Origin: Sipunculus nudus
Lineage: Eukaryota; Annelida; Sipuncula; Golfingiida; Sipunculidae
NCBI GenBank assembly: GCA_026874595.1
Contig: CM049306.1
Location: 73,159,642-73,223,641 of the forward strand
Direction: 5' to 3'
Length of the DNA: 64,000 nt
Both the position numbers and the translations under genes were made by a program. Each line of letters starts with the position of its first letter. Positions within the stretch are counted from its first letter, which is position 1. The notes beneath the pieces are model-generated. The model worked only from the letters and a program-made list of their open reading frames with translations. It made no database searches and was not told the DNA's origin. Below, piece after piece: positions 3,450 through 63,382 of this stretch.

Positions 3450-3463
3450 TCATTTACTTGCAG

Positions 3464-3611
3464 TGACTATTACAACTCTCGAGGGTCCTATCGTGACAGT
3501 GATATGGCTGCATTTGCTGTTGGAGAAATAATTGTGGCTAAATACTCTCCTGATGAAAGATGGTACCGAGCTAAAGTGATTGAGTCTGACCCAGACAATT
3601 TTAAAGTTCAT
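3464..3611 (+). CDS. Tudor-domain protein, exon with first half of the Tudor barrel
   Basis: This 148-bp exon lies between the acceptor catttacttgcag and the donor gtaagt. The first base T completes Asn with the previous exon, and the exon ends on a codon boundary. It encodes DYYNSRGSYRDSD, then the start of the Tudor fold: VGEIIVAKYSPDERWYRAKV and IESDPDNFKV. The 'W-Y-R-A-K-V' segment is the typical second Tudor strand, with Trp as a candidate aromatic-cage residue. Tudor domains of this extended type bind methyl-arginine tails, chiefly of PIWI proteins in germ granules. That role is family knowledge and is not shown here. Confidence 0.9.
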
Positions 3612-4321
3612 GTAAGTGGGCTGAATTTCATGTATTATATTCTGGGCCCAGTTTCATTAAAAATGCATATGGCTTGAGTCAAATTTTACTGAAAGACCTC
3701 GAAAGTCAGCTAACATAAGGCTGTGAGATAAGTCAGTTTCACTAAACGCAATTTAGCTAAGACTGTCTGAACCTTGGAAATCCCCTTTTCAACGCCACCT
3801 ATTGATGAAATAATGAATTAAAAAAAAGTCTGATATTGGGAAGCAAACACTGTGCGGAAGATAATGACATGGAATTTCAATTAACCCTGTGTTATTCCTG
3901 GTTACTTTTTAAATGAATAGTTTAAAAAATGGTCTGGACATGGTGGTATTGCTGTACTTGACTGTACAAAACGAACATCAATCCCCATGATCTATTTGCT
4001 CGAAAGATGGCCATATGGGTACTTGCACCGAGTGCAAGTGATATGATGTGCTATAAACCAATGAAACACAGAGTTAATCCTGCTCAGTGCAGGCTTAGCA
4101 TTTCAGCCCGCCAGGTGACTTAAGTCACTAACGTTAATTTTAATTGAACTGACTTAAAAGTAAAAAACGCAGAATAACAAGTTAAAGTAGGTTTAAAGAA
4201 ACTGGGTCCTGAATTGTTATTTATATACCATTCAAATACCGCTGCAAACTTGTTTTTAATGACAGTTTTTGTGATATGCACAAAAGCTGACCCTTTTTTT
4301 CCCACATGAGCACATCAGAAA
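3612..4321 (+). other. Intron 2, 5' part
   Basis: Mostly unassigned sequence between the donor at 3612 and the C-element end at 4322. The ORF at 4120-4305 (minus) has no recognisable features. Confidence 0.5.
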
Positions 4322-41675: not shown

Positions 41676-43694
41676 CAATGGACCCATGGGTCAAGGTACT
41701 CAGCTGTAATATATGATCACAAAATATGATTTGGAAATGAGGCACATGCTGGTTTTGTGTGGTAATAAATATAAACTGTATTATGAGATGTTGTGTTTAG
41801 CTTATGTAAGATTTTGACAGTATCTTTACATGTCATTTATATTATTTCCAAATGGAGTGCTATTGTCACACAGGTTTTGGCTTGGCCATATAATTTTATC
41901 TACATTGCAGTAGAAGTATTTAAAAAAACTGTCCATTATCAGTCATGTGAATTATGCTTTTTACAAATGAGTAAACTGTTATTTAATGATAACAGCTTAT
42001 CTCTACCCAAGAGTAGCACTAGTACATGTAATATAGGAGTTAACTTTTTATTAAAATTTAATAACAAATATTGTATATAATTTTAATTGAAAAATAATAA
42101 CAGAATTATATGATATATGATTTTTTAAATAATATAACTGAAATAAATGATTATTTAAATAATATTATAGAATATATTCATGAATGCATTCATGAATACA
42201 TTTTGAAAGAATTTGCATTCGTATTCAAATACTTTTATTTTTACCTGTATTCCTATTCTTATGCATGAAATTATGGAAGTTATATTCATATTCATAATCA
42301 AATACTTTTGCAAAGTATTAAATTCACACCAAGTCTGGAATTTATTCAGTTTCAGCCAAACAAAGATGTTGAAAATCCAAAATATACACAATTCACAAAT
42401 TTAAATAATGATCATAAGTACCTGGTATTTGGCTTTTATTTAAATTTAAAAAAATAAAACTAATATATTCAATTTGGACTACTCTCACATCAATCTACCC
42501 CTACACACAGTAAGAATCTAGATTTATATTATCAACTACATCTTTGTCTATCATTAATTTCCTTCATATGATCCCTAATGTTTAGTAATGAGTAATATAA
42601 TTTATTTTTTTAATATTAAAATTGAAATGAAAAATACAACATTTGACTCCATGGTGTTATTTGGAATACATTTTCATCCATCCATACAAGATTCCTACAC
42701 CATCAGTAACTGCAAGATAATTTTTCTGTTACTCATCAACTATCAAATTCCTTTTTCTATTAATTTTTCTTAAATTTGTTATTTAAAACCAACAAAAATT
42801 TATTAATTTATTGTTTATTTTTATGTTGTTGGCCAAAACAGCTACTAGATGAGTTGGGTTGGACACCTGGATCAACTGTGGCCAGCCATAAGCTGCCTGG
42901 GTGTCAAGTATATGCCCTGCCTCAAGCATGCATAAATTGCCAAAAAGGTCAACATACAGGTGACTGAAGAGAAGCTGGGTAGAGCCTGGGTCTGACATGG
43001 TCTCATAAAAAATTTAATAAAAGCAAAAGTTTTTGGCCAATTTCTTTCAGCTTTCAAACCTAACAAAGTGAAATCCTTGTGTGTGAATAATATGAAAATT
43101 ATATCAACAGTGCTTACAGGAGAAAAAACGTGCCATTGTCAAATTTGGGCAAAATTTAAGGTACTGATTTTATTTTTATACTAATAACTTTTTAAAATTC
43201 AGAACTAATTTTCAGTATTCAATTGAATCTTGATTGAATAAAGTTATATCCATAAAAAAAGTCTCTAGCTTCAGCAATTTTTATTTAAAGTGAGTAAATA
43301 TATTTCCTAATTTTTACAAAGTGCAAAATGTTTCAGCCCAAAACTTCAAAAAATTACAAAATACTGACATAATTTCTTGTATACAGGAAATATATAGAGG
43401 AATATGTATATGAAATATGATCAAAAAAAGATCAGTGGTTTTTATATTAGGCAGCCTTGAAGTGTAACAGTGGGTTTTTAATGGAAAATTTAGGTTTTTC
43501 CTTGATATCTCGAAGGAATGTTCTAGTGACCAAATTTTCAGTATGGAAGGAGATTTTTTGGACATCTAACAGTATGCAAAATTTCAGATTTGTAGGTCCA
43601 ATGGTTTAAAACGTGACCTGTTAACGGACAGCCAGACGATGGAAAAAGGACTATGGCCATAGCTCAGATGACTTATAGTCATCTGAGCTAAAAA
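41676..43694 (-). mobile_element. B-type element, older reverse copy
   Basis: The reversed right end GGACCCATGGGTC...CTCAGCTG is at 41676 and the reversed left hairpin ATGACTTATAGTCATCTGAG-CTAAAAA ends near 43694. Long-subtype core, visibly more diverged than the other copies, with the GTCC tract reduced to a few units. Confidence 0.8.
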
Positions 43695-44427
43695 TAACAG
43701 AAACAATGATTTCTTTATTCAGACAAGCAAGTGGATGTTCCTAAAATATCTAGATGGTGATAGAGGTGACACTCAGTATGAACAGCATGGTTGGTCTTCC
43801 TAAGGCTGTATCCACACCTGGTTCACACCTAAACCTGTTTACTTTGGTCTTCAAGTGGAGTGCTTTGTGTCTACACTGCTGTTCACTTTACATACAATAG
43901 CTTAAATCAGGTTTTTCAATAAAACATGGGTTTCCTGTCCACACTTGGTTCTTTATCCAATAAACTGTGCTGCAAAAAAGTGTACCAGAAGGATTGGATC
44001 CAAAAACGTATGCAGACTTTGCCTGTACACAAAAGGAAGTGGTTTATTGTACACCAGACTTAAGTAAACTGAACTACTGTAGGCTGCATTTCAGGCGGAC
44101 AACTGTGAACGGAACTGATGAGGATTAGTGGCCTAATGCAGATAGAGTATTATTTATTTTTACTGATTCAAGATCTGGATTATTTTGCTAGTGCGGATAT
44201 GGCCTAAAAAGTGTTAAGCCAGCAAGTGTACCCCAGTATAACCTTGGAATAGTGCTAATGTTTCTTTAACGCACTGAATCATTAGAAATTGCTTCACCCC
44301 AATTTTTCATGAAGCAACCTGTCACATTATCCTTTATATTTGTGGTACCCTAAATGAATTATAATGTTGATAATAAATATATATTTTACAACTGATTTAC
44401 GGCTAGCAATAAATCCAAAAACAAATA
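43695..44427 (-). other. Intron sequence, unassigned
   Basis: No gene or repeat end is recognised. Some phrases (TTCACTTTACAT, CTTAAATCAGG) suggest old repeats. Confidence 0.4.
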
Positions 44428-44604
44428 CAGTGGAACCTGTCAGAAAGATCACCTATCCAATTATATCATCTGTCTATTATGACCCCCTTTGAGTCAATCC
44501 AAATCATCAAAAAAGTTAAAACTGACCTGTATTATAAGACCACCCATGAATTAAGACCACTTTTGTCCAGTCCCATGGGTGGTCTCATAACACCGGTTTC
44601 ACTG
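44428..44604. mobile_element. 177-bp MITE with TA duplication
   Basis: Ends CAGTGGAACCTGTC and the reverse complement CAGTGAAACCGGTG form the TIR. TA flanks it at 44426-44427 and 44605-44606. Typical of pogo/Tigger-type MITEs. Confidence 0.72.
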
Positions 44605-44702
44605 TAATTTGAATCTGAACAACTCATCTTGTGTGTTGCAAAAAAGTTTCCCTGCAAAAATGAAAAAATGTGAAGGGCAAGACTTGATTGGTTTCAATAC
44701 TA

Positions 44703-45560
44703 AGGTCCCATGGGTCTAGACGCTCAGCTGAATTTGTCTAATAAGATATGTTTTTCAGCTTTAACAAAATTTGGGTCCTGTGATAAAGTTTGAAGCCATT
44801 CTGCTTATCCAAACTGGTGTTATCATCCATAAAAATTATTTGGGAATGGATGGACCCTATGACCATGACCTTGTGAGCTTGTGAACCAAAAATCAAACAG
44901 AATCTTCCCCTATTTGCAGATGAGCCAGATGTGGAAGATGGAATGTTTGAGATGAAAAGTTTGGCATAAAATGCATCTGCAATCTTTTTTAAAAAAAAAG
45001 TAGGTTTCTATGACCTTGACCTTTGATCTTATGACCCAAAAATCAATCGAGTTCTCACTTTAGTAGTGGGCCTTATATAAGTCAAGTTTGAAACCAGTAT
45101 CAATCTAACTTTGAGCTATCCTCTGGAAATTGATATGTGGACAGATGTATCCTGTGGCCTTGAACTTAAACTCTGTGACCCCGAAATCCATAGTTTCTTC
45201 CACTATTGGCAGTAAAGCAATACCTGGAAGATGGAGATTCTATTTTTACCTTGTGATCCCAATATCAATCAGGTTCTTTCCCTATTGACAGGTCAGCTAC
45301 ATGTGCAAGATGGAAGGTTTTGGATGAAAAGTTTGGCTTAAAGTGCATCCACCATCTTTCTAAGTAATCTGGTTGGGTGACCTCAACCTTTGATCTCATG
45401 TCCCCCAAATTGGTAGGGTTTTGTGTTAAACATGGGCCATATGTAAGTTAAGTTTGAAATCCATATGTCAAACCAAACTGGAATTATCATCAGGAAACAA
45501 CTTGTCCTGTACCTTGACTGAGAAGTGCCCTGACTCAGTCATGCACACTACATAAGGGAA
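44703..45560 (-). mobile_element. H-type element: class-1 right terminus with a D-like core (partial)
   Basis: The reversed right end AAGGTCCCATGGGTCTAGAC-GCTCAGCTGAATTTG is at about 44703. The core then has diverged units with 'CCATGACCTTGTGA', 'GACCTTGACCTTTGATCTTATGACC' and 'TATCATCCATAAAA'. These units resemble the D element core at 47690-49600. The far end is not identified. Confidence 0.55.
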
Positions 45561-46050
45561 AGTATTTGCAATGTGACCCCCAACCAGGATCGTACAAAAT
45601 GAAAGGAAAAACTAAAAATTCTGAACCGTTCAGACTGGTTCAGACCATTTACTGTGATGGAAAGACCAAATGGTATCAGACATTTTGGTGGCTAAATAAT
45701 ATATTCGTATAACGCAGTTTTTTTTATGATAACCTAGAATTCCAGACATGTCTAGCTATTATCTTGTCACTTATAGTGCTAACTCCCAATACACAGGGCC
45801 TCCATTTATGTGTACAATTATGAAGGAATCAAGGGAGTTCAAAGTACACACTACAGTAGTGTGTTTCATGATATTTATTAAAGCCTTATTTGGCCTTTTT
45901 TGTGCATTATGTGCACCAGATAAGACTTGTATTTGGTCATTCTGCTCCTAGTTTGAGCAGGGGACTGCAAATACATTACTGGTTCACTTTTCCACAACGT
46001 TTTATAGATCCAACTTGTGTATGGAATGTCAACTCATGACAAAGACAAGG
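45561..46050 (-). other. Intron sequence, unassigned
   Basis: No supported feature; the ORF at 45748-45951 has no motifs. Confidence 0.4.
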
Positions 46051-49000
46051 AACAAGGGACCTATGGGTCACGGCGCTCAGCTGTTATATATGATAAAAAA
46101 ATATTATTTAGAAATGAGGCACATGCTGGTTTTGTGTGGTAATAAATATAAGCTGTATTATGAGTTGTTGTTGTAAAGCTTATGTATGATTTTGATAGTA
46201 CCTTTGGAGACAGGGAAGAGGACTGATTTCATTTATTTTATTAATAAATGGAGTACTACTGTAACACAGATTTTGACTTGGTCATATAACTTATAAGCAG
46301 CACATATAATATAAGAGTTTAACTATTTATTAAAAAAAAATTACAAATATTGTCCCAAATATAATTTTTATTTAAAATAATAAGAGAATCGTATGATTTT
46401 TTAAAATGAAATATAACTGAAGTGATTATTAAAATAATATTAAAGAATATATTCATGAATGCATTCATGAATACATTTTGAAAGTATTTGCACTGGTATT
46501 CATATACTTTCATTTTTACCTGAATTCCCATTCTTTATGCAAGAAATTTTATAATGGAGTACAAATTCATATTCGTATTTAAATACAATTGCAAAGTGTT
46601 TGCACCATGTCTGGTATTTATATAGTTTTCACCAAACAATGATGTTGAGAATCCAGAATATACAAAATTCACACATTTAAATAATGATCATAAGTACCTG
46701 GTTTTATGGTTTTTATTTATATGAAAAAAATAAATGTAATATATTCATTTTGGACTTATTTCACATCAATGTACACACTAGACACAGTAGGAATCTAGAT
46801 TAATATTATCAACTGCATCTTTGTCTATCATTAATTTCCTTCATATGATCCCTAATGATTAGTAATGAAAAATATGATTTACATTTTTATCATTAAAATT
46901 GAACTGAAAAATACTGCATGGTGTTATTTGGAATATGTGACATTCTATCCATCGAAACAAGATTCTTATATCATCAGTAACTGAATGTTAATTTTTGTTT
47001 TTATAAACAAATTCCTTTTCTATTTTTCTTTAATTTGTTATTAAAAATCAATAAAAATTTATTAATTTATTGTTTATTGTTATGTTGTTGGTTAAAACTA
47101 CTAGATGAGTTTGGTTGGACACCTAGATCAACTGTGGCTGGCCATAAGCTGCCTGGCTGCCCCAGTGAATGCCTCGATTCAAGCATGCATAATTTGCTGA
47201 AAGTTCAACAAGGTCAACATACAGGTGACTCGAGAGGGGCTGGAGAGAACCAAGGTCTGACATTGTCTCATTAAAACATTAATAAAAGCTTCAATTTTTG
47301 GTCAATTTCTTTCAGCTTTCTAAACTAAAAAGCTGAAATCCTTATGTGTGCATGATATGAAAAATTATATCAACAGTGCTCACAGGAAACAAACGTGCCA
47401 TGGTCAAAGTTGGGCAAAATTTAAGGTACTAATTTTATATTTATACTAATAACTTATAAAATTTGAAAATTTCAGAACTAATTTTTGGTATTCAATTGAA
47501 TCTTGATTAAACTAGACATTTCTTGGCACCGCAGGTGCCAGAGTATCCCCAGACATAGTAGGCCCCCCCCCTTTAAAAACAGACCCCCATTTTTAGCAGC
47601 ATATACTGACACTTTGCATATTTATTGTTTCTTCCATCTAACAATCCACAATCTTGTTGAAGATGTTGGTCCTGTGACCTTGATCTTTTTAAAGATGTGT
47701 CCTGTGACCTTGACCTTTGACCTCATGACCCCAAAATCAATTTGGGTCTTGCTTTTCCAATGGGACATATGCAAGTCAAGTTTGAAATCTATACATCAAT
47801 AAAGCAGGAATTATCATCCAGAAACTAATTTTTTTTTACAGGTGGCTCCTGTGACCTTCACCTTTGACCTTGTGACCTCAAAATTGATAGTTTTCTTCCT
47901 CTCTTGGCAGGAGAACTATATGTGCAAGATGAAAGATCTGAGATGAAATGTTTGGCTGAAAATGCATCCAGATCTTTTTAAAGATGTGTCCTGTGACCTT
48001 GACCTTTGACCTCATGACCCCAAAATCAGTTTTGGTCTTGCTTTTCCAATGGGACATATACAAGTCAAGTTTGAAAACCATACATCAATAAAAGCAGGAA
48101 TTATCATCCAGAAACTAATTTTTGGACAGATGGCTCCTGTGACCTTCACCTTTGACCTTGTGACCTCAAAATTGCTAGGGGTCTTCTACTCTTAGCAGGT
48201 GAACTATATGTGCAAGATGAAAGATCTGAGATGAATTGTTTGGCTAAAATTGTATCCACAACTTTTTAAAGAGGTTTCCTGTGACCTTGACCTTTGACCT
48301 CATGACCCCAAAATCAATTCGGGTCTTGCTTTTCCAATGGGTCAAATACAAGTCAAGTTTGAAATCCATACATCAATAAAAGAAGGAATTACCATCCAGC
48401 AACTAATTTTTGGACAGACAGCTCCTGTGGCCTTGACCTTTGACCTCAAAATTTATATGGATTATCCACTATTGGCAAGTGAGCTATATATTCAAGATGG
48501 AAGACCTGGGATGAAAGTTTGGTTTAAAATGCATCCACGTCTTTTTAAAGATGTGTCCTGTGACCTTGACCTTTGACCTCATGACCCCAAAATCAATTTG
48601 GGTCTTGCTTTTCCAATGGGACATATACAAGTCAAGTTTGAAATCCATACATCAATAAAAGAAGGAATTACCATCCAGCAACTAATTTTTGGACAGACAG
48701 CTCCTGTGGCCTTGACCTTTGACCTTGTGACCCCAAAATTTATATGGATTATCCACTATTGGCAAGTGAGCTATATATTCAAGATGGAAGACCTGGGATG
48801 AAAGTTTGGTTTAAAATGCATCCACGTCTTTTTAAAGATGTGTCCTGTGACCTTGACCTTTGACCTCATGACCCCAAAATCAATTTGGGTCTTGCTTTTC
48901 CAATGGGACATATACAAGTCAAGTTTGAAATCCATACATCAATAAAAGCAGGAATTATCATCCAGGAACTAATTTTTGGACAGATGGCTCCTGTGACCTT

Positions 49001-51200
49001 CACCTTTGACCTTGTGACCTCAAAACTGATAGGGGTCTTCCTCTATTGGCAGATGACTTATATGTGCAAGATGAAAGGTCTGAGATGAAATGTTTGGCTG
49101 AAAATGCATCCACAATCTTTTTAAAGATGTGTCATGGACCTTGACCTTTGACCTCATGACCCCAAAATCAATTGGAGTTTTGCTTTTTCAATGGGACATA
49201 TATAAGTCAAATTTGAAATCAATACATCAATAAAAGCAGGAATTATCATCCAGAAACTAATTTTTGGACAGATAGCTCCTGTGGCCTTGACCTTTGACCT
49301 TGTGACCGCAAAATTTATATGGATCATCCACTTTTGGCAAGTGAGCTATGTATTCAAGATGGAAGACCTGGGATGAAAGTTTGGCTTAAAATGCATCCAC
49401 AGTATCTTTTAAAAATGCCAGTCCAGTAACCTTGACCTTTGACCTCATGACCCTAGAACCTATAGGGTTCTTACTTTAGTGGTGGGCCATACATAAGTCA
49501 TGTTTGAAATCCGTATGGCTATCAACACTGGAGATATCATAAGAGGTGTGTGATTTTCACCATATATGGCAATATTCAAGGTCAAGGCCACTATCATAGA
49601 AAAGGTCATGACCCTAATTTAAATAAACATCATCCCATAACCCATACCTATGTATATGCATAATATAAAAGAAATCTGTCCATTAGTTTTTGACTTATAA
49701 TGCTCACAGTACTGTAAGGTGGCAATTTTGGGGGTATTAAACGGCATGAAAACAAGTAAAGAATAATAGGTGGCGCCACCAGTTTCTGGAACATGACAAC
49801 CCTATCCATGATCTTCCATCAACTTGATTTTGGGATAAATCCATGCAGGATTTCTTGAGATATTAAAGAATTTGTGTGATTTTCCCCAAAATTGGACCTA
49901 TTCAAGGTCAAGGACACTCTCCTAGTAAAGGTCATGTCCTCATTTTCAATAGACGTCATCCTCTTACCCATATCTATACATATACCAAGTTTCGTAAAGT
50001 TCCGTGAAATATTTTTTGGGTTATCGCGCCAACAAGATTTATATGCGGCGGCGGCGGCGGGACCGGTATGAAAACATAGTATCCCCCGACTTTGTCTGGG
50101 GATACAATAATGTTACATCCCTGACAAAAATTCTCTAGCTTCAGCAATCCCCTTGTTAAGGGAGTAAATATATTTCTTGATTTTGTACAAAGTGCATTAT
50201 GTTTGGGCCCATAACTTAAAACAATAACGCAATACTGACATCATTTCTGGCATGTGCATAGAGAATGTATAGAAAAATATAAATATTATATATGTTTAAA
50301 GTCAGATCAGTGGTTTTGATATTAGGCAGTCTTGAGGTGTAACAATGGGTTTTTAATGGAAAAATGAAGTTTTTCATTAATATCTCGAAGGTATTAAGTC
50401 CTAGTGACCAAATTCTTGGCATGGTAGGGGATTTTGGAGACATCTAATTGTATGCCAAATTTTAGGAACTGAGAGCTGAAGCTTGGGAGCTGAGCTCTTG
50501 CAAACTGCATAACACTAGCTTGATGTAAACAATATGTTACATGGTGCTTGAAAACTTGAATAAAATCTACAGTTTTTGATCAACTGGTTTCAAATTTTTG
50601 GTGTTAACAGACAAAATGCTAACATAAACATGCTGTGAAAATTAAATCCACAGTACCTTCATTAAAAAAACGTGCCATGGCCAAAGTTGGGTGAAATTTA
50701 AGGTACCAATATTTTATTTTTGTTAATATTTTAAAAAATTTAAAAGATTTTGATCTAATTTTGGGTATACAATTTAATTTTGATTAATTTAAGTTATATT
50801 ACTGTAAAAAAAGTCCATAGCTTTAACAGGTTTTGTGTTAAGTGATCAAATATCTTTCCTGATTTTTTACAAAATGCATTATGTTAGGGCCCATAACTTT
50901 TTTAAATTATACAATACAGACATAATTTCTAGCATGTACATAGGAACTATATAGAGGAATATTTATGGTAAATATGGGGAAAAAACAGATGAGTGGTTTT
51001 GATATTAGGCAGTCCTGAAGTGTGAAAATAGGTTTTTAATAAAAAATTGAGGTTTTTCCTAAATTTCTCAAAGGAACGAAGTCGCAAAGAGCCAGTTTTT
51101 GGCTTGGTAGGAGATCTTGGGGACATCTAACATTATGCCGAATTTTGGATTCCTAGGTCTCACGGTTTTAAAACGTGCCACATCTACGGACGGACGGACG

Positions 51201-51234
<34 letters not shown>

Positions 51235-51284
51235 AATGGACCACGACTATAGCTCAGATGACTTATAGTCAGCTGAGCTAAAAA
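46051..51284 (-). mobile_element. B-type element, reverse, split by a Helitron
   Basis: Pieces are 46051-47511 and 50108-51284. The reversed right end AACAAGGGACCTATGGGTCA-CGGCGCTCAGCTG is at 46051. The reversed left end has a GGAC tract (about 51186-51235) and the hairpin ending GCTGAGCTAAAAA. The break in 'GATTAAATAATGTTACATCC' is intact in other copies (for example 19070-19095). Confidence 0.85.
47512..50107 (-). mobile_element. D-type Helitron (non-autonomous) with ~287-bp tandem core
   Basis: On the minus strand the 3' end has a perfect 7-bp hairpin TGGCACC-TGC-GGTGCCA, 8 bases, then CTAG (47512-47515). The 5' end has the hairpin GTATCCCC...GGGGGATAC and a (CGG)n tract. Comparison with unsplit B elements shows insertion between A and T, the Helitron target. 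The core has about six ~287-bp monomers at 47690-49410 (spacing for example 47695 to 47985). There is one GGTGGCGCCACC at 49769-49780. No Rep/helicase ORF. Confidence 0.85.
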
Positions 51285-51285
51285 A

Positions 51286-52144
51286 CTAGAATACGGGTAG
51301 TCGACAAGCATCTACATGTTTCTGTTTAAATCACGAGTACAGGTAGGACAGGTGAAGTGAGGCATGGATTGAGTGGCACAGGAAAATAGAGTGAGATGTG
51401 TTGCCTATTACCGTATTAGCAAGGATGTGTGCCACATAAACATGATTGTATGTTGCGCACCTGTTTTTGAAAGAAAAAGCTATCCAAGATGTATACCTAT
51501 GCAAAATTTAAGGTGGACAAATCAAACCACTACTGACGTATGAGTGATTTTTACCCTAGGCAGATGAACAGATGGACACCATCCAAAAATGGTTGTTAGT
51601 TGGGCCACCAAAGCAGTAGAGCTATGTAAGATATTACAGTCCTAAGATATTAGTATGGATGTCTGTGTCATAAACATGAACATACGTGGCGCCTCCTGTC
51701 ACAAAATCGAGAAAGCTATTCAAGATGTATACATATGAAAAATTTTAGGAAGATAATTCAAACCACTGCAGAGATATGAGTGATTTTATCCCATGGCAGA
51801 CAAACAGAAGGACGCTGTGCAAAAATGGTTGCAGGTGACGCAACCATATTTTTGTATGATATAAAGCTACCCAAGACCTACACTGGTGCACAATTTCAGC
51901 CGATCTGTCAAACGAGTCCGAAGATATGTGGGTAAATGTGTGCAAAGAGGAAAGGTCAGAGGTCAATCCAAAATGAGGGTGCAGATCACATGTGACCCAA
52001 CCATAATTCTGAGTTTCGTAAAATTCCTTCCATGCAGTGGTTAAGGAGGAGTTCTCTGGGAAACCTATGTGGCAGCGTCAGAGCCTGCAGTGGCGGCGGC
52101 TGGCTGAAAACATAGTACCCACAAAACTCTGTTTTGGCGGATAC
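51286..52144 (-). mobile_element. C-type Helitron-like element, diverged copy
   Basis: CTAG end at 51286-51289 (ACTAGAATACGGGTAG) and the hairpin end GTACCCACAAAACTCTG...GGCGGATAC at 52115-52144. The core has lost most perfect GGTGGCGCCACC copies. It directly abuts the B-element end. Confidence 0.75.
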
Positions 52145-52689
52145 AAATATGACTGACATACAGAAAGACAAATAAAAGGACAGACAGACAGGTCGATTAA
52201 AATAGGGCATCCACTTATTAAGTGGGGCCCTAATAACACACAGGTTTGAGGACTGTAGTGTTGCAGTACTAATAAGGTAAGCAGAGAAAGCTGCAATGAA
52301 TGACCTCCAGTGATAAAGTGGCCTGCTTGACACCACAAGCAAATACAATAAGAGCCTCCAAAATATTCAATAACTAGCCTAAATTTAGAGCTTTTACTTT
52401 CAAATTTGAAATTTTGAGATACTGGAGGTTTTGTATTTTATTTTTTATTATTCTGGGGGGTAATTTCAAGCCCCATAGCTTGGAGGATATAGTTTGCAGT
52501 GACCTAATTTCAGGTTTCCAAGGGGATTTTTTATTGACCTCCCTGGACGTTCACTTAGAAGTTTCTAGGTCCAGCAGTTATGATTTGTGCCCTGCTAACG
52601 GACGGCCAGACACCGGGATGGCCAGACGGACGACGGACAAAGCGCCATTCCTATATCTCAGTTGACTTACAGTCAGCTGAGCTAAAAAT
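52145..52689 (-). mobile_element. F-type element fragment with class-1 left terminus
   Basis: Core phrases 'ATTCTGGGGGGTAATTTC', 'AGCCCCATAGCT' and 'GACCTAATTTCAGGTTTCC' are followed by a GGAC-rich tract and a reversed hairpin ending GTCAGCTGAGCTAAAAA at about 52688. Nearly the same block recurs at 59331-59706. Confidence 0.7.
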
Positions 52690-53653
52690 GTTTTTGGCCA
52701 AAACAACTACTACAGGAAGGGGGTTGGACAGTTAGATCCAGCTGAAGCCAATCAAGAGCTGGCTGGCTGCAGAGTATGCCTCACTTCAAGCATGCATTAT
52801 TGGCCTGAAAGGTCAACAAGTTGGATCGTGGGGTTTCAGTTTTGCCTAGTTGTGACATGGTCTCATAAAAACTTAAATAAAAGCTCCAGTGTTTGGTAAA
52901 TTCTTTTAAATTTCAGATTTTAGAAGCTGAAATCCTTAAGTGTGCATGATATGAAAATTAAATTGACAGTGCTTCCAGGAAAAAACATGCCATAACTATA
53001 AATAAAATTCCTACGGTGAATCCTTTAAGAGATATCCCGCTCACAAGGCCAAAGTTGAAAATCTGAGAAAAATTCATAACAAATCAGAAATTGTAGGTGG
53101 CGCCCCCTACATTGCGCAGCAAGTACAGACCATCAGTCCCAATGATCATAGCAAGTTTTGTGAAAATCCACCCAATGGTTCCTGAGAAATAAGCTTTTAA
53201 GTGTTTTTCTATAATCAGCTCTAAAATGGAGAAAAATAGGTCAAGGTCACCCATCTTCGAACTTGGCTGAGATTTTGTCGACAAACATCTTCACCAAGGA
53301 AAAAAATTCCTACGGTGAATCCTTTTAGAGATATCTTGCTCACAAGGTAAAAGTTCACGGACGCCGGACGGATGGACGGACAGCTTGGGTGACGACAATA
53401 GCCCATCAGCCTAAGGGCTGAGGGCTAAAAATGGAGGGTTTTCCTTAATAATTCGAAGGAACGAAGTCCTAGTGACCTAATTTTTGGTATGGTATGAGAT
53501 TTTGGGGACATCTAACTGTATGCTGAATTTCAGATTTGTAGGACTAACAGTTTAAAAACGTTCCAGTTTAACGGAGGGACAGACAGATGAACAGCTAACG
53601 GTCAAAGGACCACGACTATAGCTCAGATGACTTATAGTCAGCTGAGATAAAAA
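52690..53653 (-). mobile_element. B-type fragment, reverse, containing an E-type fragment (about 53000-53427)
   Basis: The B core ('CAACTACTACAGG...GTTGGACA') is interrupted by E sequence. The E part ends in the reversed hairpin TAGCCCATCAGCCTAAGGGC-TGAGGGCTA with a GGACGGAC tract. B sequence then resumes and ends with a reversed AGCTCAG hairpin at 53653. The right terminus is missing. Confidence 0.65.
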
Positions 53654-54249
53654 TGTGCCATGCCTAAAGTTGGGTCAAATTTAAGGTACTGATTTTATGA
53701 TTAAGCTAATAACTTTTAAAATGTAACAAAATTCTGATCTGATTTCTGGGATATAATTGAACCTTGATTAAATAAAGTTATATTCATGGCAAAACATTTC
53801 TAGCTACAGCAATTATCTTGTTGAGTTTACATATTTCCTGATTTTTCACAAAGTGCAATATGTTTGAGCCCATAACTTCAACAATTTACGCAATATTGAC
53901 CTAATTTATGGCATATGCAATTGAAGTATAAGCAGGAATGGTTATATATCAAACATGAATACAATTACTCCAGTGGTTTTCATAGTGGGCAGTTTTGAAA
54001 AGTAACAATAGGTTTTAACTGGGAAACAGAGGTTTTCACTAAATTTCTCAAAGGAATGTAGTCGCAGTGACCCAGTTTCCTGTAAAGTAGGAGATTTTTG
54101 GGACATCTAACAATATGCCAAATTTCGGAAAAATACATCCAACGGTTTGAAAATGTGCCCTGTTAACGGACGTCAGGGCAGACAGATGGACGACAGGATA
54201 AAGGACCACGACTATAGCTCAGATGACTTATAGTCAGTTGAATTAAAAA
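53654..54249 (-). mobile_element. B-type fragment, reverse, left end only
   Basis: Core phrases 'AAGTTGGGTCAAATTTAAGG' and 'CACTAAATTTCTCAAAGGAA', then the reversed terminal hairpin ending at 54249. Old and truncated. Confidence 0.6.
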
Positions 54250-54366
54250 TCACAAGGTGATCATACTTATACATTTTAATCTGAATATCTGTTACTTGTA
54301 AAGGTATGTTTTGCCCACTATTAAATATATATAAATTAACCATTTTGGCGATTAAATAATTTGTAC

Positions 54367-54411
<45 letters not shown>

Positions 54412-55134
54412 TATATATATATAAATACATTACCAAATAGTGTACATAACAACATTTCAACATTTATCTAACTTTCCTCTCTATTTTTTTCACCATGATG
54501 CCCAGAGCCATTCCTTTACCTCAGCAGAGCCTTACCTGCGTGCCGGGGGGGTTATATAATACTGTTATCGCCAGGTGTGCCGGATTAGCAGAATATCTGT
54601 AATTTATCCTGTTGCACTGAGTTGTAAATAATCAAAATAAGGGTGAAATATTGAACTTTGAAGCAAGATTAATTATTAATTATTCATAAAGAGGCCATTT
54701 ATGTGTGACAGGAAAAGTGAACCAATAGCAGTCTGAAACGTTATTTACATATATATTTAGGGGGACATCAATATAGGGAGGGGCCTTTTGAGAACAGCTT
54801 GGGTTAAGACAGGAGATGAGTTGACTCCCAGCCAGCTGGCATGGATCTCCCAACCTGGTCTGGGGAGATATCACATTTGCTGGGTGGTGATACTCTGGGG
54901 TCAACAAACAGATTGTAAATACAAACTGTCAGGGTAAAGCCAAATGCCATCAAGCTTCAATTAAATAATGTTAATTTCTCCAGTTGTCAGTGTTCTGTGT
55001 GTGAGTGACCAGAGAATCTGAGAGGACTTTACAAGCTGAGCTAAAACTGGGTGCTGAGAAATGTATGAGAATGTGAAGTGTAGGGACAGTGAACGATGAT
55101 AAGTGAGATGAAGAAATATCAAACATAGTCTTAC
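54250..55134 (-). other. Intron of the membrane-protein gene, with an (AT)n microsatellite at about 54373-54425
   Basis: The (AT)n run is almost pure. The rest is unassigned. ORFs here lack motifs. Confidence 0.6.
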
Positions 55135-55303
55135 TGTCATGTTCCACATAGATGGTGATTTCCTTCTGGTTATCCTTTTCTTGTGGTGTTGGTCTCACAT
55201 AGAAAACATGTTCTTCCCTATAAACAGTATCTGCATTGCGCCTTAACCTCATAGGTGGGCCCACACCTCCATCCACATCTCCGTCTATTTGTTCGGCTAC
55301 TTT
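55135..55303 (-). CDS. Single-pass membrane protein, extracellular exon
   Basis: 169-bp exon, acceptor tgaatcttgtag and donor gtaaga (minus). It starts in phase 0 and ends with one base (A) that joins AG of the next exon to give Lys. It reads KVAEQIDGDVDGGVGPP, then MRLRRNADTVYREEHVFYVR and PTPQEKDNQKEITIYVEHD. RLRR is a possible furin-type cleavage site. The last part alternates like beta strands. Upstream exons lie beyond the window or were not recognised. The exact family is unknown. Confidence 0.78.
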
Positions 55304-55370
55304 CTACAAGATTCAAACAGCACAATGATTGAATTTTAAAAATGTTTATGTTCAGTAGTTAACAATTAAA

Positions 55371-57257
55371 GGGACCCATGGGTCACTATGCTCAGCTGAA
55401 ATCTAAAACAATATCAAACGGAGATAAAAGTCTGAGAAGAAGGGAAAATATAGGCCATGGTTGGTTGATATTATTGAAGAGATTGTGGCAAATAATATTT
55501 TGTGATCTGACCATGTGTTTCCTAATGTTGAAACTGAAGCATGTAAGCAGTTTGTCAATTTAAGACCTGTTCCATTACCGTGATCATTGGTTGGCTTTTT
55601 GATAAGCTGTTGACAGTTCAGCAGTTTACACATATGTCCAATCAGATTCTTTTATTAAATCTTTTATTAAATTTTTTTTAATAAATGTTTACTGTTGGTA
55701 TAACTTTCCCACTCCACACGTGGAAGAACTTGATGGTGGGCACGGGGGGGAGGGGAGGGGGGGGGGGAGACAGAAGGGAAGGGGGGAGGGGAGGTAGGGT
55801 TGGTGGGTGCAGGGGAGGGGGGGGGGGGGGTTGGAGGGGGGATAATGATGGGAGTTGCAACACCTCTGTACCTCTGTTTATAATTATTTTCTTTATTTAA
55901 TAAATTTTATGCAGTTGCAATAAAACTATTGCCCCTAGTGCTCAGGTGAAAGGACTCAATAGTGGGGAAGGGAACTGTGGGAGTTAGAAGGCCCTTGCAT
56001 GTATACATACAGAATATGAATTTAAATTCAAAAGTGCTTACAGGAAAAAATGTTTATCCATAATTATTAAATATTTAAAAAACAGGCAGAGATGGAAAAA
56101 CAAAGCAAATCACTTAAATTCCCATTCTACTGAGGCAGGAAAATAATGAATAAGAATGAATCAGATACAGAAAATTATAACATTCATCTAGTTTATGCAC
56201 CATCTGGGGGGGGGGGTGCAAGACAGAGGGGAAGCCTGCTAGTAGTCGCCAAGCTGAGCCAAGGCAAGCCGCCTGGAGTACATAACACAAGTGAAGGCTG
56301 TACTCCTAGGTGGGCTAGATGTAAACAACACTTGACATAGTGTATGAAAACTTGAATAAAAGCTAATCTTTTCAATCAATTCCTTTTAAATTTTAGATTT
56401 AAAAGGTTAAATCCTTATGTATATATGCTGTGAAAATTAAATGAACAGTGCTCACTGAGAAAAAACGTGCAGTTGCCAAAATTGGACAAAAATTAAGGTA
56501 TTGATTTTTTATTTATGCTAATAACTTTTTAATAACTAAAAAATTGCAAACTTCAGATCTAATTTGGGTAAACAATTGAATCTTGATTAAATAAAGTTAT
56601 ATCCCTTAAAAAAAGTCTTCAGCTTCAGCAATTAAAAATATAAATATAAATAAGATTCCAAGTGTTTTTCTATAATCAGCTCTAAAACGTAGAAAACAGG
56701 TCATGGTCACCCATCTTCAAACTTGACCAAGATTTTGTCGATATACATTTTCACCAAATAAATAAAATTTCTACAGTGAATCCTTTTAGAGTTAACTTGC
56801 TCACAAGGTAAAAGTTAACGGATGCCAGACGGACGGACTTGGACAGCTTGGGTGACAACAATAGCCCATAAGCCTAAGGGCTGAGGGTGGAAAATTACAA
56901 AATTCAGTTCTAATTTTGGGTATACAATTAAATCTTGATTAAATACAGTTATATACTTGAAAAAAGTCTCTAGCTTCAACACTTATTAAGTTAAGTGAGT
57001 CTTCACTGATTTTTTACAAAGTGCATTATATTTAGCCCCATAACTTTTATAAATTAAGAAATGCTGACTTAATTTCTGACATGAACACGGAAACTATATA
57101 TGAGATAATTTATGGTAAATACAAGAAAGAAGTGATTTTTATATTAAGCAGTCCTGTGTGAACTGGTTTTTAATGGTTAGGTCTAACGGTTTCAAAACTG
57201 ATGACAAACAATGGAAAACATCTACAGCTCAAATGACTTATAGTTAGCTGAGCTAAA
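55371..57257 (-). mobile_element. B-type element, poly-C subtype, reverse, with an E-type insert (about 56640-56893)
   Basis: The reversed right end AGGGACCCATGGGTCACTAT-GCTCAGCTGA is at 55371. A long G-rich run (55741-55840) sits where the other poly-C copies have their C run. The translated right-half shadow ORF at 55403-55633 matches those at 12434-12667 and 21410-21643, which confirms homology. The E fragment ends with a reversed AGCCCATAAGCCTAAGGGCT-GAGG hairpin. The B left end is at about 57257. Confidence 0.7.
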
Positions 57258-58052
57258 ATGTGGAAGGTTTGGGATAAAAATTTTGGCTTAAAATGCATCC
57301 ACAAGTTTATAAATAGGTGGGTCCTGGACCTGGACCTTCGACCCGGTAGGCTTACATTGTTGTTCAAGTTTGAAACCAATATGTCATTCAAAACAGGAGT
57401 TATCATCTGGAAACAAATATGCAGACAGATGGCCCCTGTAACCTTGACCTATTACCTTCTGACTGCAAAATCAATCAGAATCTTCCCTTACTGGCAGGTC
57501 AGCTATATGTGCAAGATGGAAGATTTGGAATGAAAAGTGGCTTAAAATGCATCCAAAATTTCTAAATAAGTGGGATGGGTGACCTTGATCTTGGACCTCA
57601 TGACCCCAAAATCTATAGATTTCTTGCGATAGAGATGGGCTTTATATAGATCAAGTTTGAAACCGTATGTTAATCCAAACTGGAGTTATCACCTGGAATC
57701 AAAATGACCAACATACAGAAAGACAAACAGACAGACAGACACAGACAGGGTGATTACTATGGGGCATACACTTACTAAAGCAGGGTCTTCATCACACACA
57801 AGGTTCCAGGAAACAAGATGAAACCACAGTTGCAAAATTGATAGTTTCATTATAATTTGTCATTTTAAAAATAAAGGAAAAAATTCGTAAAAAATAGAAA
57901 AAAATACAGGTGTCACCACCAGTCTTCAGGAAATGAAGAAACCAGTCATAATCAACATACCCCCGAGATTTCAAGACACTAGATGAAACTAAAATTGAGA
58001 AACGGACTCAATTTGATAGTCTCTAACACAGGGGAAAAAATTGTAAAAATTA
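57258..58052 (-). repeat. Fragments of D/H- and F-type tandem cores
   Basis: 57258-57730 has D-like units ('GTAACCTTGACCTATTACC', 'GGACCTCATGACCCCAAAAT'). 57780-58050 has F-like units ('CAGGTGTCACCACCAGTCTT'). Terminal sequences are not found. Confidence 0.55.
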
Positions 58053-58650
58053 GAAACTAGGGACCCATGGGTCTCCACGCTCAGCTGCATTTGTCTATAA
58101 GGATATATGTTTATGAGGTTTTCCAAAATATTGGTCCTGTGATCAGTTTGAAGCCAACTTGTCTACCCAAACTGGAGTTATTATCCATAAAATAATTAGT
58201 GAATGGATGGGCCTGTGACCTAGTGACCCCAAAATCAAAAGGAAACTTCCCCAATTGGCAAATGCACCACATGTCGATGATGGAAGGATTGAGATGAAAA
58301 GTTTGGCTTAAATACATCCCCGATCTTTCTAAAGTAGTGGGTCCTGTGACCTTGACCTTTGATCTCATGACCCCAGAATCAACATTTATTACTTTATTTG
58401 TGATCCATTTATAAGTCAAGTTTGAAACAAATTTTTTCCAACCAAACAGGTGTTATCATCTGGAAACTTGTAGGTGGACAGATGGCCCCCATGACCTTGA
58501 CCTTTGACCTTTGTGACCCCAAATCCATAAGTTACTTCCACTATTGGCTGGTGAGTAACATCTGGAAGATAGAAGGTTTGGGACAGAAAGTTTGGCTAAA
58601 AATACATCAACAATCTTTTTAAAGAAGTTTGGCTTTATGAAAACAAGTTT
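58053..58650 (-). mobile_element. H-type element: class-1 right terminus with D-like core (second copy, partial)
   Basis: The reversed right end TAGGGACCCATGGGTCTCCA-CGCTCAGCTGC is at 58053. D-like units follow, with 'TGTGACCTTGACCTTTGATC' and 'CCATGACCTTGACCTTTGACC'. It aligns with the element at 44703. Confidence 0.6.
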
Positions 58651-59150
58651 ACGTTTGAATTTTAATTGCTCCCTCTGCATTCTCGCATCATCGACCGATT
58701 CGATTCTGACAGTATGACTGTGTTAGTGTAGCCATGTGTCTGGTGTCTGCAGAACTGAAACCAGCCAGCAAGGTGAGCATGCAGCCTTTGTTGTTACGTT
58801 TTGTTTGAATTACAGCTCACCGACCGGGCATCCTATATGCCCAAGGCCCTAAGTAAACCATGTCTGCGGCAATTCTCTCTGAGCCTGTGGCCTGTTCATA
58901 CGGTTACCGGGGCGATGAGCTGTCACTCAAAACGAAATGAACATGATTGGCTCCGTGTATTCCTCGTTTGGCCGTGTCTTCCAGCACAAGGTCTCATCTG
59001 ATTGGACAAAAATACAGTGCTCCCTCTGGTGTAGCAATTCAGGATACAAGGTCATAACAAACAGCGCTTACCATATAGGAAGAAGACCTATAGTTAAAGC
59101 GCTGTGTAAAGAGCGTAATGTAATTACAGCTAAGAAACTGACATGATTGT
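58651..59150. other. Unassigned segment with higher GC/CpG
   Basis: Not similar to any other part of the window. GCTCCCTCTG occurs near both ends (about 58668 and 59020) in the same orientation. The two ORFs are short and lack motifs. It could be a fragment of a DNA transposon or a low-copy host segment. Confidence 0.4.
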
Positions 59151-59159
59151 TGTCATTTT

Positions 59160-59706
59160 ATAGTAAAAAAAATAGAAAAATATTCGTTAAAATAACAAGA
59201 AATACAGGTGGCGCCACCACTTTTCAGGAACTGACAAAACTAGTCATGGTCAATATTTAAGACAAGATTCATGACAATCCATGCATTAATTATAAAGATA
59301 TTAGAGGTTGTGTATTAAATTTGTGATTATTCTGGGGGGTACTGCTTGACAACACAAGCTAATACAATAAGAGCCTCCAAAATATTCAATAACTAGCCTA
59401 ATTTTAGAGCTTTTACTTTCAAATTTGAGATTTTGAGATATTGGAGGTTTTGTATTTTATTTTTGATTATTCGGGGGGGTAATTTCAAGCCCCATAGCTC
59501 AGAGGATATAGGTCACATTGACCTAATTTCAGGTTTCCAAGGGGATTTTTTATTGACCTCCTTGGATGTCCACTTAGAAGTTTCTAGGACCAGCACTTAC
59601 GATTTGTGCCCTGCTAACGGACGGCCTGACGACCAACAGCTGGACAGATGACGGACATAGCGCCATTCCTATACCTCAGTTGACTTACAGTCTGCTGAGC
59701 TAAAAA
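59160..59706 (-). mobile_element. F-type fragment with class-1 left terminus
   Basis: Core units (GGTGGCGCCACC near 59208, 'ATTCTGGGGGGTACT') precede a GGAC-type tract. The reversed hairpin TTGACTTACAGTCTGCTGAG-CTAAAAA ends at about 59706. Confidence 0.7.
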
Positions 59707-60300
59707 TGCAAATGGCACTACCTATTTTTGAAAACTATTAACTCTAGTAATGGATAATATTGAAGCCAAAATTCAGAGCAATCCATGCATAAATTGTCAA
59801 GATATTGGAGGATTTGTATCAAATTTTTAATTATTCTGGGGGTAATTATGAGCCCCACTGCTCGGCAGATATAGGTCACAGTGACCTACTTTCAGGGTAC
59901 CAAGGAGATTTTTCTATGGACCTCTCTAGACTTTCAGTTACAGGTTTCTAGGTCCAATGTTGACAAAACGCGCCAGTCAAACTGATGGACAGACAGACAG
60001 ATGGACGGAGAGACAGGAACCAAGGAACACTCCATGATGAATATGCATGCAAAGAATCATGGTGGTCAATGCAATAGTTGTTCAGATACTGGAGCTTTTG
60101 TATAAAATTTTTAATTATTCTGGGGGGTATTTCTGAGCCCCATAGCTCAGAGGATATGGTTAACAGAGACCTAATTTCATGTTTCCATGGAGATTTTTCA
60201 TGTATCTCCCTGAATTTCAAGTTACAAGTTTCTTAGTCCAAAGGTTTCACAGTGCCCTGGTAACAGGTGATCACATCTTAGAAGGTGTCAAAAATAAAGA
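59707..60300 (-). repeat. F-type core units without termini
   Basis: Two further ~320-bp units ('GGAGATTTTTC', 'CTAGGTCCAATG', 'ATTCTGGGGGTAATTATGAG'). No terminal hairpin is seen here. Confidence 0.6.
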
Positions 60301-63300
60301 AACAAGTGACCCATGGGTCATGTCGCTCAGCTGACAGGGAAGAGATTCGCTAAAGGAAATTTTATCATCAGAATGGTAGTATATACCCATTCAACTGAAG
60401 CATCAAACAGATTAACCAACAGGCCAAGATTTAGTCTTTATTTATATATCTCAAAAATAGAGAAAAAATGTGTAAACTTTAAAAACTAGAATACGGGTAG
60501 CCGACAAGTGACCACATGTATCCGCCAAAATCAGAGTGGAACGGTTGAAGTGAGGCATGGATTGAGTGGCAAGGGGAAATAGAGTGAGGTATGTTGTATA
60601 TTAGCATGGATGTCTGCAGCCTAAATGTGTATGTAGGTTGTGCCACCTACCACAAATCCAGAAAGATGTCCAAGTTGTATACATATGCAAAATTTTAGGC
60701 AGAAAAGTCAAACCACTACATATGTATGAGTGATTTTAGCCAACGGCAGACAAACAGACAGACACTGTGCAAAAATGGTTACAGGTGGCCCCTCCAGTTG
60801 ACCTATGTGAGATCTATACACATGAAAAATTTTGGCCCAATCGTTCAAACGGTTCCCGAGATATGAGCTCGGATGTCTGCCGTGTAAACTAGAATGTAGG
60901 TGGCGCCAACTGTCATAAAATCAAGAAAGCTATCCAGGATGTATAAAACTGCAAAATTTTAGGCAGATATGTCAAACCACTGCCGAGATATGAGTGACAT
61001 TATCCCACGGCAGAAAACAGACAGACGCTGTGCAAAAATGGTTGCAGGTGGCGCCACCAGTTTTGCGTATGATAAAGAGCTATGTGATATCTATACACAT
61101 GCAAAATTTTGGCCCAATCGGTCAAACAGTTCCTGAGATATGAGCTTGGATGTGATCAGCTTGAACGTGAATGTAGGTGGTGCCATCTGTCATAAAATCA
61201 AGAAAGCTATCCTGGATGTATATGCATGCCGAATTTCAGGTGAATTAGTCAATTCACTGCAGAGATATAAGTGATTTTAACCCAAGGCAGATGAACAGAT
61301 GGACACTGTGCAAACATGGTTACAGGTGGCGCCACCATTTTTGTGTATGTTATAAAGCAATCCAAGGGCTACATTTGTATAAATTTTATTTCCTGATAGG
61401 TCAATCGGTTCCCGAGATATGAGGGTTTATGTGTGGAAACAGATGCACAAATGGACGCTGGATAGAGGGGAAAGGTCAGAGATCAACAAAAATTGGTTAG
61501 GCACTAGTTCACATGTGACTAGATAATTGGTGTAAGTTTCGGAAAAATCGGTCCATTTTTCTCAGAGGAGCTCTCTGGAAACAAACGTGGCGGCGGCGGA
61601 GGAACCCGGTAAAAAACATAGTATCTGCAAAACTTTGTTTTGGAGGATACAAAAAAACAGGTGGCTCCACCAGTCTGCAGAAACTAATAAAAACACTTAA
61701 TGGTCAATATCCATGCAAAGAATCATGGTGATCTCCGCATTAGTTGTTCAGATACTTTAGATTTTGTATCGAATTGTCCATTATTCTGAGGGATACTTCA
61801 GAGTCCTATAGCTTGAAGGATATGGGTAACAGAGACCTAATTTCAAGTTTTCACAGGCACTCTTCATGGGCCTCCTTGCATGACAAGAATGAAGTTTCTA
61901 GGTCCAGTTGTTGCAATTTGTACCCTGTTGACAGATAACCACATCTTTAAAGGTCTCAAAAAAAGAGAAAAAAAATTCGTAAAAATTTGAAAAAAATAGA
62001 GTTGGCGCACCCAGTCTGCAGAAAGTGATGGAACAGCTCATGATCAATATGTATGCCGAAAATCATGACCATCTGTGTTGTAGTTATTGAGATATTGAAG
62101 ATTTTGGAAATTTTTGACTACTCTGGGGGGTACTTTGGGGCCCCATAGCTCAAAGGATATGTGTAACAGAGACCTAATTTTCTGGTTTCCATGGAAACTT
62201 TTCATAGGTCTCTCAGTGTATTGAGAATGAAGATTCTAGGTCCAGTCGATACGATTTGTGCCTTGCTAACAGATGACAGCATCCTTAAAGGTCTCAAAAA
62301 TAGAGGAAAAAATCGTAAAAAAAAAACCAAACAAATACAGGTTGTGCCACCAGTCTGCAAGAACTGATGAAACACCTCTTGATCAATATGTATCCCAAAA
62401 ATCATGACCATCAATGATGTAGTTATTGAGATATTGAAGTTTTTGTATGAAATTTTTGACTACTCTGGGGGGTACTTTAGGGCCCCATATCACGATGGAT
62501 ATGGGTAACAGAGACCTAATTTCTGGTTTCCATGGAGACTTTTCATAGGTCTCTCTGAATGTCAAGAATGAAGATTCTAGGTGCAGTTGTTACGATTTGT
62601 GCCAAGCTAACAGATGACAGCATCCTTAAAGGTCTCAAAAATAGAGAAAAAAATTCATAAAAAATCCAACGATACAGGTGGCGCCACCAGTCTGCAGGAA
62701 GTGATGACACATCTCATGATCAATAGTTATGCCACAAATCAAGACCATCAGTCAAGTAGTTAATGAGATACTGAAGTTTTTGTATGAAATTTTTTACTTT
62801 TCTGGGGGGTACTTTGGGGCCCCATAGCTCAAAGAATATGGGTAACAGAGACCTAATTTCTGGTTTCCATGGAGACTTTCCATAGGTCTCTCAGTGTGTC
62901 GAGAATGAAGATTCTAGGTCCAGTCGTTACGATTTGTGCCTTGTTAACAGATGTTCACATTTTTAAAGGTATCAAAAATAGAGAAAAAAATTCGTAAAAA
63001 AATCGAAAAATACAGGTGGCGCCACCAGTCCTCAGGAACTGATGGAACATCTCATGATCAATATGTATGCCAAAAATCATGACCATCAGTCAAGTAGTGA
63101 ATGAGATATTGAAGTTTTTGTATGAAATTTTTTACTTTTCTGGGGGGGTACTTTGGGGCCCCATAGCTCGAAGATATGGGTAACAGAGACCTAATTTCTG
63201 GTTTCCAAGGAGATTCTCATTGACCTCTCAGAATGTAAAGTTACAAGATTCTAAGTCCAGCGGTTACGATTTGTGCCAGGTTAACGGACAGACGGACGGA

Positions 63301-63382
63301 CAGACAGACGGACGGACAGACGGATGACGGACAAAGAGTGATCGCTATAGCTCAGCATGACTGAAAGTCAGCTGAGCTAAAA
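60301..63382 (-). mobile_element. F-type element, class-1 termini, split by a C element
   Basis: The reversed right end AACAAGTGACCCATGGGTCA-TGTCGCTCAGCTGAC is at 60301. The reversed left end at 63290-63382 has a GGAC/GACA tract and the hairpin ending GTCAGCTGAGCTAAAAA. The core is about five ~310-bp units with 'CAGGTGGCGCCACCAGTC', 'TGGGGGGTACTTTGGGGCCC' and 'GAGACCTAATTTCTGGTTTCC'. The C element at 60486-61650 breaks one unit, which resumes exactly. The termini match B elements but the core does not. Confidence 0.78.
60486..61650 (-). mobile_element. C-type Helitron-like element, uninterrupted reference copy
   Basis: CTAG at 60486-60489 and hairpin GTATCTGCAAAACTTTGTTT-TGGAGGATAC at 61621-61650, next to a GGCGGCGGCGG tract. 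The core has about three ~280-bp units with GGTGGCGCCACC. It provides the unsplit template for the copy at 4322-8411. Confidence 0.82.

Follow-up and report, generated by a model that had tools for sequence, protein, structure and literature searches.

A 64,000-nucleotide stretch of the Sipunculus nudus genome (assembly GCA_026874595.1, contig CM049306.1, positions 73,159,642 to 73,223,641 of the forward strand; hereafter the window) carries families of tandem-repeat elements with the anatomy of non-autonomous Helentrons (HINEs). One terminal class, class I, is joined to several different cores, and one core, the D-like array, stands in two terminal classes, namely in H elements with class I ends and in D elements with class II ends. 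We consider it fairly probable that these elements are HINEs moved in trans by Rep/helicase proteins, and that the D-like array came to be in two classes after one old event, with ends and core inherited jointly since then. Ends and a core held in common, a single D/H split, junctions lying inside the elements, one precise nested insertion and Rep-encoding relatives with the class I right end were all observed. An earlier note on positions 41,676 to 63,382 of the window had proposed both kinds of sharing and had explained them by cores being swapped between terminal cassettes; the sharing was borne out, the free swapping was not.

Shared ends and a shared core

The classes are recognised by their ends. 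The class I left end is TTTTAGCTCAGCTGACTATAAGTCATCTGAGCTAT followed by (GTCC)n, and the right end is CAGCTGAGCNNNNTGACCCATRGGTC followed mostly by CCTTGTT or ACTTGTT; class II starts with GTATCCCCAGACAAAGTCGGGGGATAC and a CCG tract and finishes with GTCTGGGGATAC, GGCACCTGCGGTGCC and CTAGT. A sister type, IIb, has a hairpin of the GTATCCGCCAAAA type on one side and ...TACCCGTATTCTAGT on the right, while class III begins with AGCCCTTAGGCTGATGGGCTA and ends in a CAGC/GCTG hairpin and TCTAGT. The parts expected of a HINE were found in classes I and II: subterminal inverted repeats (subTIRs) at both ends, an inverted repeat (IR) near the left end and a 3' palindrome (AGCTCAGCTGA ... TCATCTGAGCT and CAGCTGAGC ... 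GACCCATGGGTC in class I, GTATCCCCAGAC ... GGGGGATAC and GTCTGGGGATAC ... GGCACCTGCGGTGCC in class II), together with a microsatellite, (GTCC)n or the CCG tract, and central tandem repeats. The right-terminus string TGACCCATRGGTC matched the window 26 times at no more than two mismatches, against 1.8 expected, most sites being counted on both strands since the string is nearly palindromic. Four class I right ends and two of the H type were located between positions 41676 and 63382, all on the reverse strand (Table 1). Exact matches were counted on both strands of the genome holding the window (1,426,538,692 bases in 153 contigs). There were 12,130 forward and 12,035 reverse matches to the class I right end (24,165 in all), 1,683 and 1,641 to the class II hairpin-CTAGT end (3,324), and 212 and 201 to the H core joined to CAGCTGAGC (413); the D/H 34-mer gave 5,085 and the IIb right end 6,182 matches. 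Each of these five patterns, when reversed, gave no match.

End-motif scans and self-comparison of the window agreed with the earlier statement that B, F and H elements share the right terminus and differ in their cores. The left hairpin with (GTCC)n, which had been claimed for B and F, was present in both and also in H, where it stands at 59705 (reverse strand) in the window and was found in 9 of 18 fetched H loci by a pattern allowing up to 8 edits. Units by self-comparison measured 337 bp in F, correcting the earlier figure of about 310 bp, and 288 bp in D. For the class I sample 40 loci were taken from the first 100 listed, on contig C1 up to 2.05 Mb, and were grouped, along with the window's ends, on the 700 bp that precede the right end. 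By core they fell into 18 B, 6 Cc and 6 F loci, two groups of 3 and 4 single loci, i.e., five multi-copy core families and four single cores behind one right terminus; the pairing of each terminus always with one core was not seen in the samples. None of the 40 loci had a D-like core, and the three H stretches of the window showed no similarity above shuffles to a B-type core (42021-43600) or to the cores of F and IIb.

The resemblance of the H core to that of D was far above chance. Smith-Waterman scores of the three H stretches against the D array were 268, 293 and 238, while the largest values in 100 dinucleotide shuffles per comparison were 32, 34 and 30, and reversed D gave no signal against the H stretches. 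Median best-pair identity was 72.9% between H and D, 88.7% within D and 76.0% within H. Both are built of the same dimer of two halves, which separate completely in the tree (217 of 217), so the dimer is older than the split between H and D. The class II sample, 19 loci from the first places listed on contig C1 (20 fetched, L060 set aside), contained 11 loci with a D array, 7 with arrays of the 430-bp unit standing at D's left and no D array, and one (L045) with something else. The 18 H loci were picked by a pattern including the H core end, and their D-like core is given by design; an F337-type stretch lay upstream of the array in 14 of them, and a class II right module was found beside the array in none of the 18. 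A third sample was anchored in the core itself, with 20 loci on contig C1 that carry the 34-mer and did not figure in the lists of class II and H ends. The class II right module was found in 12 of these (three truncated), the H right module in 5 and neither in 3; no other terminus and no third donor of the D-like array was met among the 20. The presence of one core in two terminal classes, as proposed before, is thereby seen also from the core outwards. The H-type 34-mer occurs three times on contig C1 at 5143685, 5148646 and 5153602, about 4.96 kb apart, a spacing which suggests a tandem duplication carrying H.

Descent, junctions and candidate Rep/helicase partners

The monomer tree comprised 110 monomers, 41 from D, 38 from H and 31 core-anchored ones counted as neither. 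Its D/H labels required one change, against at least 19 (mean 27) in 200 label shuffles. In IQ-TREE analyses with 16 of the 41 D monomers, D formed one clade in both half-units (SH-aLRT, an approximate likelihood ratio test, 99). FastTree placed D inside the diversity of H on half-units and suggested a transfer from H to D; this direction was not retained, as the approximately unbiased (AU) test keeps H as one clade in either half (p 0.48 and 0.59, not rejected). Association of ends with cores was assessed on 51 class I right ends, 40 sampled and 11 from the window, with H left out. The 4-base spacer of the end predicts the core family, its mutual information being 1.87 bits against at most 1.45 in 2,000 shuffles. 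Shuffles reached the observed value in 0 of 2,000 cases for the spacer, 0 for the three bases after the palindrome and 2 for the A/G position. Because there is one D/H change, D is one clade and the variants of the right end track the core, ends and cores were mostly inherited together. Neither the monomer tree nor the end/core association supports free interchange, and “interchangeable” is too strong a word for ends and cores. Judged from these sequences, the sharing looks like the outcome of few founder events rather than of a pool of interchangeable cassettes, and the exchange looks rare and old.

The junctions of the shared array lie inside both elements. An H element starts with the class I left end and an F337-type unit; a second GTCY tract comes next, then the D-like array, beginning ...CACACAAATTTGTTTCCAGATGATAACTCC, and last a class I right end, which mostly finishes in CCTAGTT. 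In D the array follows a 430-bp unit that extends to ...GGTGAAAATCACACA. Stretches ahead of the array could be extracted from 11 of the 18 H loci, and in 8 of the 11 the second GTCY tract stands directly before the array, the other 3 having missed the target. The expectation of junctions next to a GTCC tract was borne out in H, by the GTCY tract, and not in D, where the junction follows ...GAAAATCACACA within the 430-bp unit. By eye, both arrays start in a similar register, with CACACA at both starts, and joining of the array at a short match is possible. That a decayed class I left end precedes the inner GTCY tract of H was considered and dropped as not significant (303 of 2,000 shuffles scored as high). 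In some H loci, e.g., L066 and L068, the stretch from the F337-type unit to the second GTCY tract contains CTCAGCTGTAATTACATCTAGT, which has an inverted-repeat-like start, a 10-bp palindrome and CTAGT and resembles a degenerate right end inside H.

One insertion could be placed precisely, as five B-type copies give the undisturbed site of the D element nested in B. D sits in a TTT run, and nothing beyond the T run was duplicated; a duplicated TT would be indistinguishable from terminal Ts in this one case. T-rich insertion without target duplication, as in HINEs, was thus found once. A canonical Helitron has a 5' TC, a 3' hairpin with CTRR and inserts between A and T; class II does have a hairpin and CTAGT, and is set apart by its TGTATCC start and its TTT-run site. 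Miniature inverted-repeat transposable elements (MITEs) have terminal inverted repeats and target duplication, and were rejected since the inverted repeats here are subterminal and there is no duplication beyond the T run.

Helitron_like_N had at least 143 matches in the genome (150 of 195 candidates scored). Five Rep loci (L099-L103) were read 3' of the domain, and five further ones (L126-L130), picked by hand, were sampled at the expected distance. All of the first five have Rep-type and PIF1-like helicase domains; as to the endonuclease domain, L099, L100 and L102 pass the curated cut-off, L101 scores below it, and the stretch of L103 has none. A class I right end followed the frame by about 1.0 kb in L101 and about 1.4 kb in L103, no class I left end being present in the stretches read of these two, and 10 kb of L099, L100 and L102 contained no class I right end. 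The end was also present in L126, L127, L128 and L129 and absent in L130, which resembles L099. In total 6 of 10 sampled loci had it, where the genome count predicts about 0.04 per 5 kb and strand. The matches of L126 and L127 to L101 (98.6% and 98.9%) stop just after the L101 right end, which fixes the 3' boundary of the element; L128 matches L103 beyond the right end too and is therefore not an independent insertion. The 3' region of L103 is 77.5% identical to the Cc core over 178 bp, and the likeness is found in 4 of the 6 sampled Cc loci. Two loci have doubled class I right ends: a B-type end 45 bp after the 3' end of the Rep element in L126 (560-680, Rep sense), whose first right end has a mismatch in its palindrome, and an F-type end 177 bp after it in L129 (540-760, Rep sense). 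With the end anatomy and the T-run insertion, these loci uphold the earlier assignment to Helentron-type elements.

We picture the origin of such families as follows. A rolling-circle Rep/helicase would move HINEs in trans and would need only the end blocks, which are kept: on the left a subTIR, its inverted copy and a microsatellite tract, on the right the matching inverted repeat, a short palindrome and CTWGT. The middle varies. Nested insertion with read-through, or joining at short matches, would give rise to chimeras, and copying past the first of two doubled ends would probably produce them as well; a chimera that is amplified would found a new family. The D-like array may have been given by one class to the other, or both may have taken it from a source not found here. 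In both classes it lies inside the element, following a unit characteristic of its host, and ends and core would have been inherited together after the transfer. As a route, nested insertion, which was seen directly, is at least as good as the template switching or gene conversion put forward earlier.

Several observations weigh against this picture of one old event served by Rep/helicase partners. Given the AU result, the transfer may have gone in either direction. Three loci look like further single mosaics and may reflect more than one exchange: L042 with a stretch of 430-bp units between pieces of D array, L069 with a B left end and B core ahead of a D-like array, and L086 with a D array running into an F core. 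The locus samples were not random draws. In 4 of the 10 Rep loci the stretch read contained no class I right end, one of them being L102, which is 93% identical to L101 through the frame. A left end was looked for in the 7 kb upstream of two Rep-encoding elements and not found, and none of the Rep-encoding elements read had class II ends.

Frequent, ongoing exchange of cores between cassettes, through template switching or gene conversion in rolling-circle replication, would produce mosaics of this kind, and CACACA at both array starts would suit it. The mosaics can stem from nested insertion as well, however, and with one D/H change, end variants that follow the core and no D-like core in 40 class I loci we regard such exchange as unlikely. 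It is quite improbable that H and D are old branches of one ancestral element, without any transfer, with ends that are no longer recognisably alike: H plainly has class I ends, which it shares with B, Cc and F, elements with cores unrelated to D, and the units ahead of the array differ between H and D. This explanation draws on the same order of parts in both classes, on reciprocal monophyly of H and D monomers, which was not rejected, and on the CTAGTT that finishes H right ends, comparable to CTAGT of class II. Nesting is common here, and H could in principle be an artefact, D DNA lying beside class I ends through nesting or segmental duplication; with the H junction exactly repeated across the genome, one part order recurring in the H loci and no class II right module adjoining the arrays of the 18 fetched, we find this barely credible. 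A single old event followed by joint inheritance is the reading we keep.

Elements of the window and their common palindrome

The elements recognised in the window are given in Table 1. Several of them lie nested in others, among them D within the B-type element and IIb within F. Rfam and tRNA scans of the window gave no match. The units of a separate tandem array at 1386-2086 are about 43 bp long, and its shifted copies are about 95% identical; an open stretch at 3510-3620 resembles, by eye, a Tudor-domain exon of a host gene.

Table 1. Elements and motif sites in the window, numbered from its first base.
Feature	Position	Strand	Composition
Class III element	2431..3450	+	AGCCCTTAGGCTGATGGGCTA, (GTCC)n, about 300-bp units, CAGC/GCTG hairpin, TCTAGT
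Diverged B-type class I element, both ends present	41681..43693	-	end motifs; right end 41681-41706; about 80-82% identity to other B copies
H copy 1	44705..45540	-	D-like array, class I right end 44730-44705; no left end identified
B-type class I element, D inside	46058..51283	-	left hairpin 51283-51249, (GTCC)n, B core, right end 46083-46058; 90-93% identity to other window B copies
D, class II element	47511..50106	-	left hairpin 50106-50079, CCG tract, one 430-bp-type unit, array about 49515-47683 (288-bp dimer), right module 47682-47511, CTAGT last
Palindrome GGTGGCGCCACC in D's 430-bp-type unit	49769..49780		also at 59207, 61047, 61325, 62677, 63015 in H, IIb, F
IIb directly adjoining the left end of the B element	51285..52144	-	
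Class I element within H copy 3	55373..57255	-	right end 55373-55398; right-end flank clusters with Cc family
H copy 3	57255..57990	-	F337-type stretch, GTCT tract, D-like array; cut off by class I element starting near 57255
H copy 2	58062..59705	-	class I left end, F337-type stretch, unrelated insert, D-like array, right end 58087-58062
F, class I, IIb inside	60308..63380	-	337-bp core units; right end 60333-60308
IIb nested in F	60485..61650	-	GTATCC hairpin left, 277-bp units, ...TACCCGTATTCTAGT right

The palindrome GGTGGCGCCACC is found in cores of different classes. It has 17 exact matches in the window and 28 at no more than one mismatch (2744-63026), against 0.03 expected. It occurs once per unit in the F337 (class I), 430-bp (class II) and 300-bp (class III) units and twice in the 277-bp unit of IIb, and is absent from the B, Cc and D reference cores. 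Upstream of it stands ATATCTC (up to one mismatch), most often at -81 in 39 of 65 IIb277a units and at -83 in 22 of 52 IIb277b units (others at -84 to -86), 18 of 20 II430, 3 of 5 F337 and 2 of 4 III300 units; none of 3 F337-variant units had it. In the genome, counts pooled over families gave 62,916 exact matches for ATATCTC and the palindrome at a gap of 73-80, and 55 at a gap of 93-100. Among 100 places listed for the pair IIb-like units were commonest, with 430-bp and F337 units also present. Outside the motifs, 0 of 1,000 shuffles scored as high as the IIb277b-III300 comparison and 2 of 1,000 as high as II430-F337, other cross-family core pairs reaching 12 of 1,000 at best. This weak likeness makes a common origin of the palindrome-bearing cores likely, and distant common origin with retained motifs is the simplest reading of the pair. 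We mention as a tentative possibility that the pair is a selected signal, for example a copying-pause hairpin or protein-binding box, which builds and expands units and lets arrays cross end classes. A literature search for the string GGTGGCGCCACC returned one paper, which was unrelated.

Comparison with known systems

The DINE-1/HINE/Helentron sequences of flies, mite and mosquito are, we assume, unrelated to the elements described here. In structure they are alike, with subTIRs, an IR, a 3' stem-loop and preference for TT, and they have a partner coding for Rep, helicase and endonuclease, for which the Rep loci here are candidates; the available sections of that report make no mention of a core shared between families (PMC4067079). 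The closest counterpart is Cg_HINE of Crassostrea gigas, for which the accessible part of the source gives the same series of 5' subTIR, IR, microsatellite, tandem repeats, 3' subTIR and palindrome, with no target site duplication and T-rich sites (PMC7492417). Related flanks with unrelated repeats (its group 2) and double arrays are described there too. Each C. gigas repeat cluster has one specific flank pair, a rule which the D-like array does not follow, and no autonomous partner could be linked (PMC7492417); here, in contrast, one core stands in two end classes and class I right ends are found on Rep-encoding elements.

Pearl elements and the BIV160/Cg170 satellites are likewise a case of related repeats (CvA, BIV160, Cg170) on different elements, across bivalve species, going by the portions of the sources at hand (PMC5139131, PMC7492417), whereas the sharing reported here is within one genome and both junctions can be read. 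A 12-bp palindrome in phBglII400, a 400-bp satellite of Ruditapes philippinarum (a clam), is the site of 13 of 16 array junctions, according to the same portions (PMC5139131). The units here also have a 12-bp palindrome; the two are likened by length, the letters of the clam palindrome not being printed in the main text. One repeat shared by two end classes of HINEs was reported in no title or abstract opening listed; most subscription papers lie outside the coverage. As far as our searches show, three things are new: within a single genome a repeat stands in two end classes and its junctions can be read, Rep-encoding elements carry the class I right end, and four cores have a spaced motif pair in common. 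Short Helentron arrays are thought to seed satellite DNA, as stated in the available text of PMC7492417. The two-class array bears on how an end pair gains a new repeat, and together with the Rep-linked class I ends and the motif pair it makes the origin of the central repeats testable.

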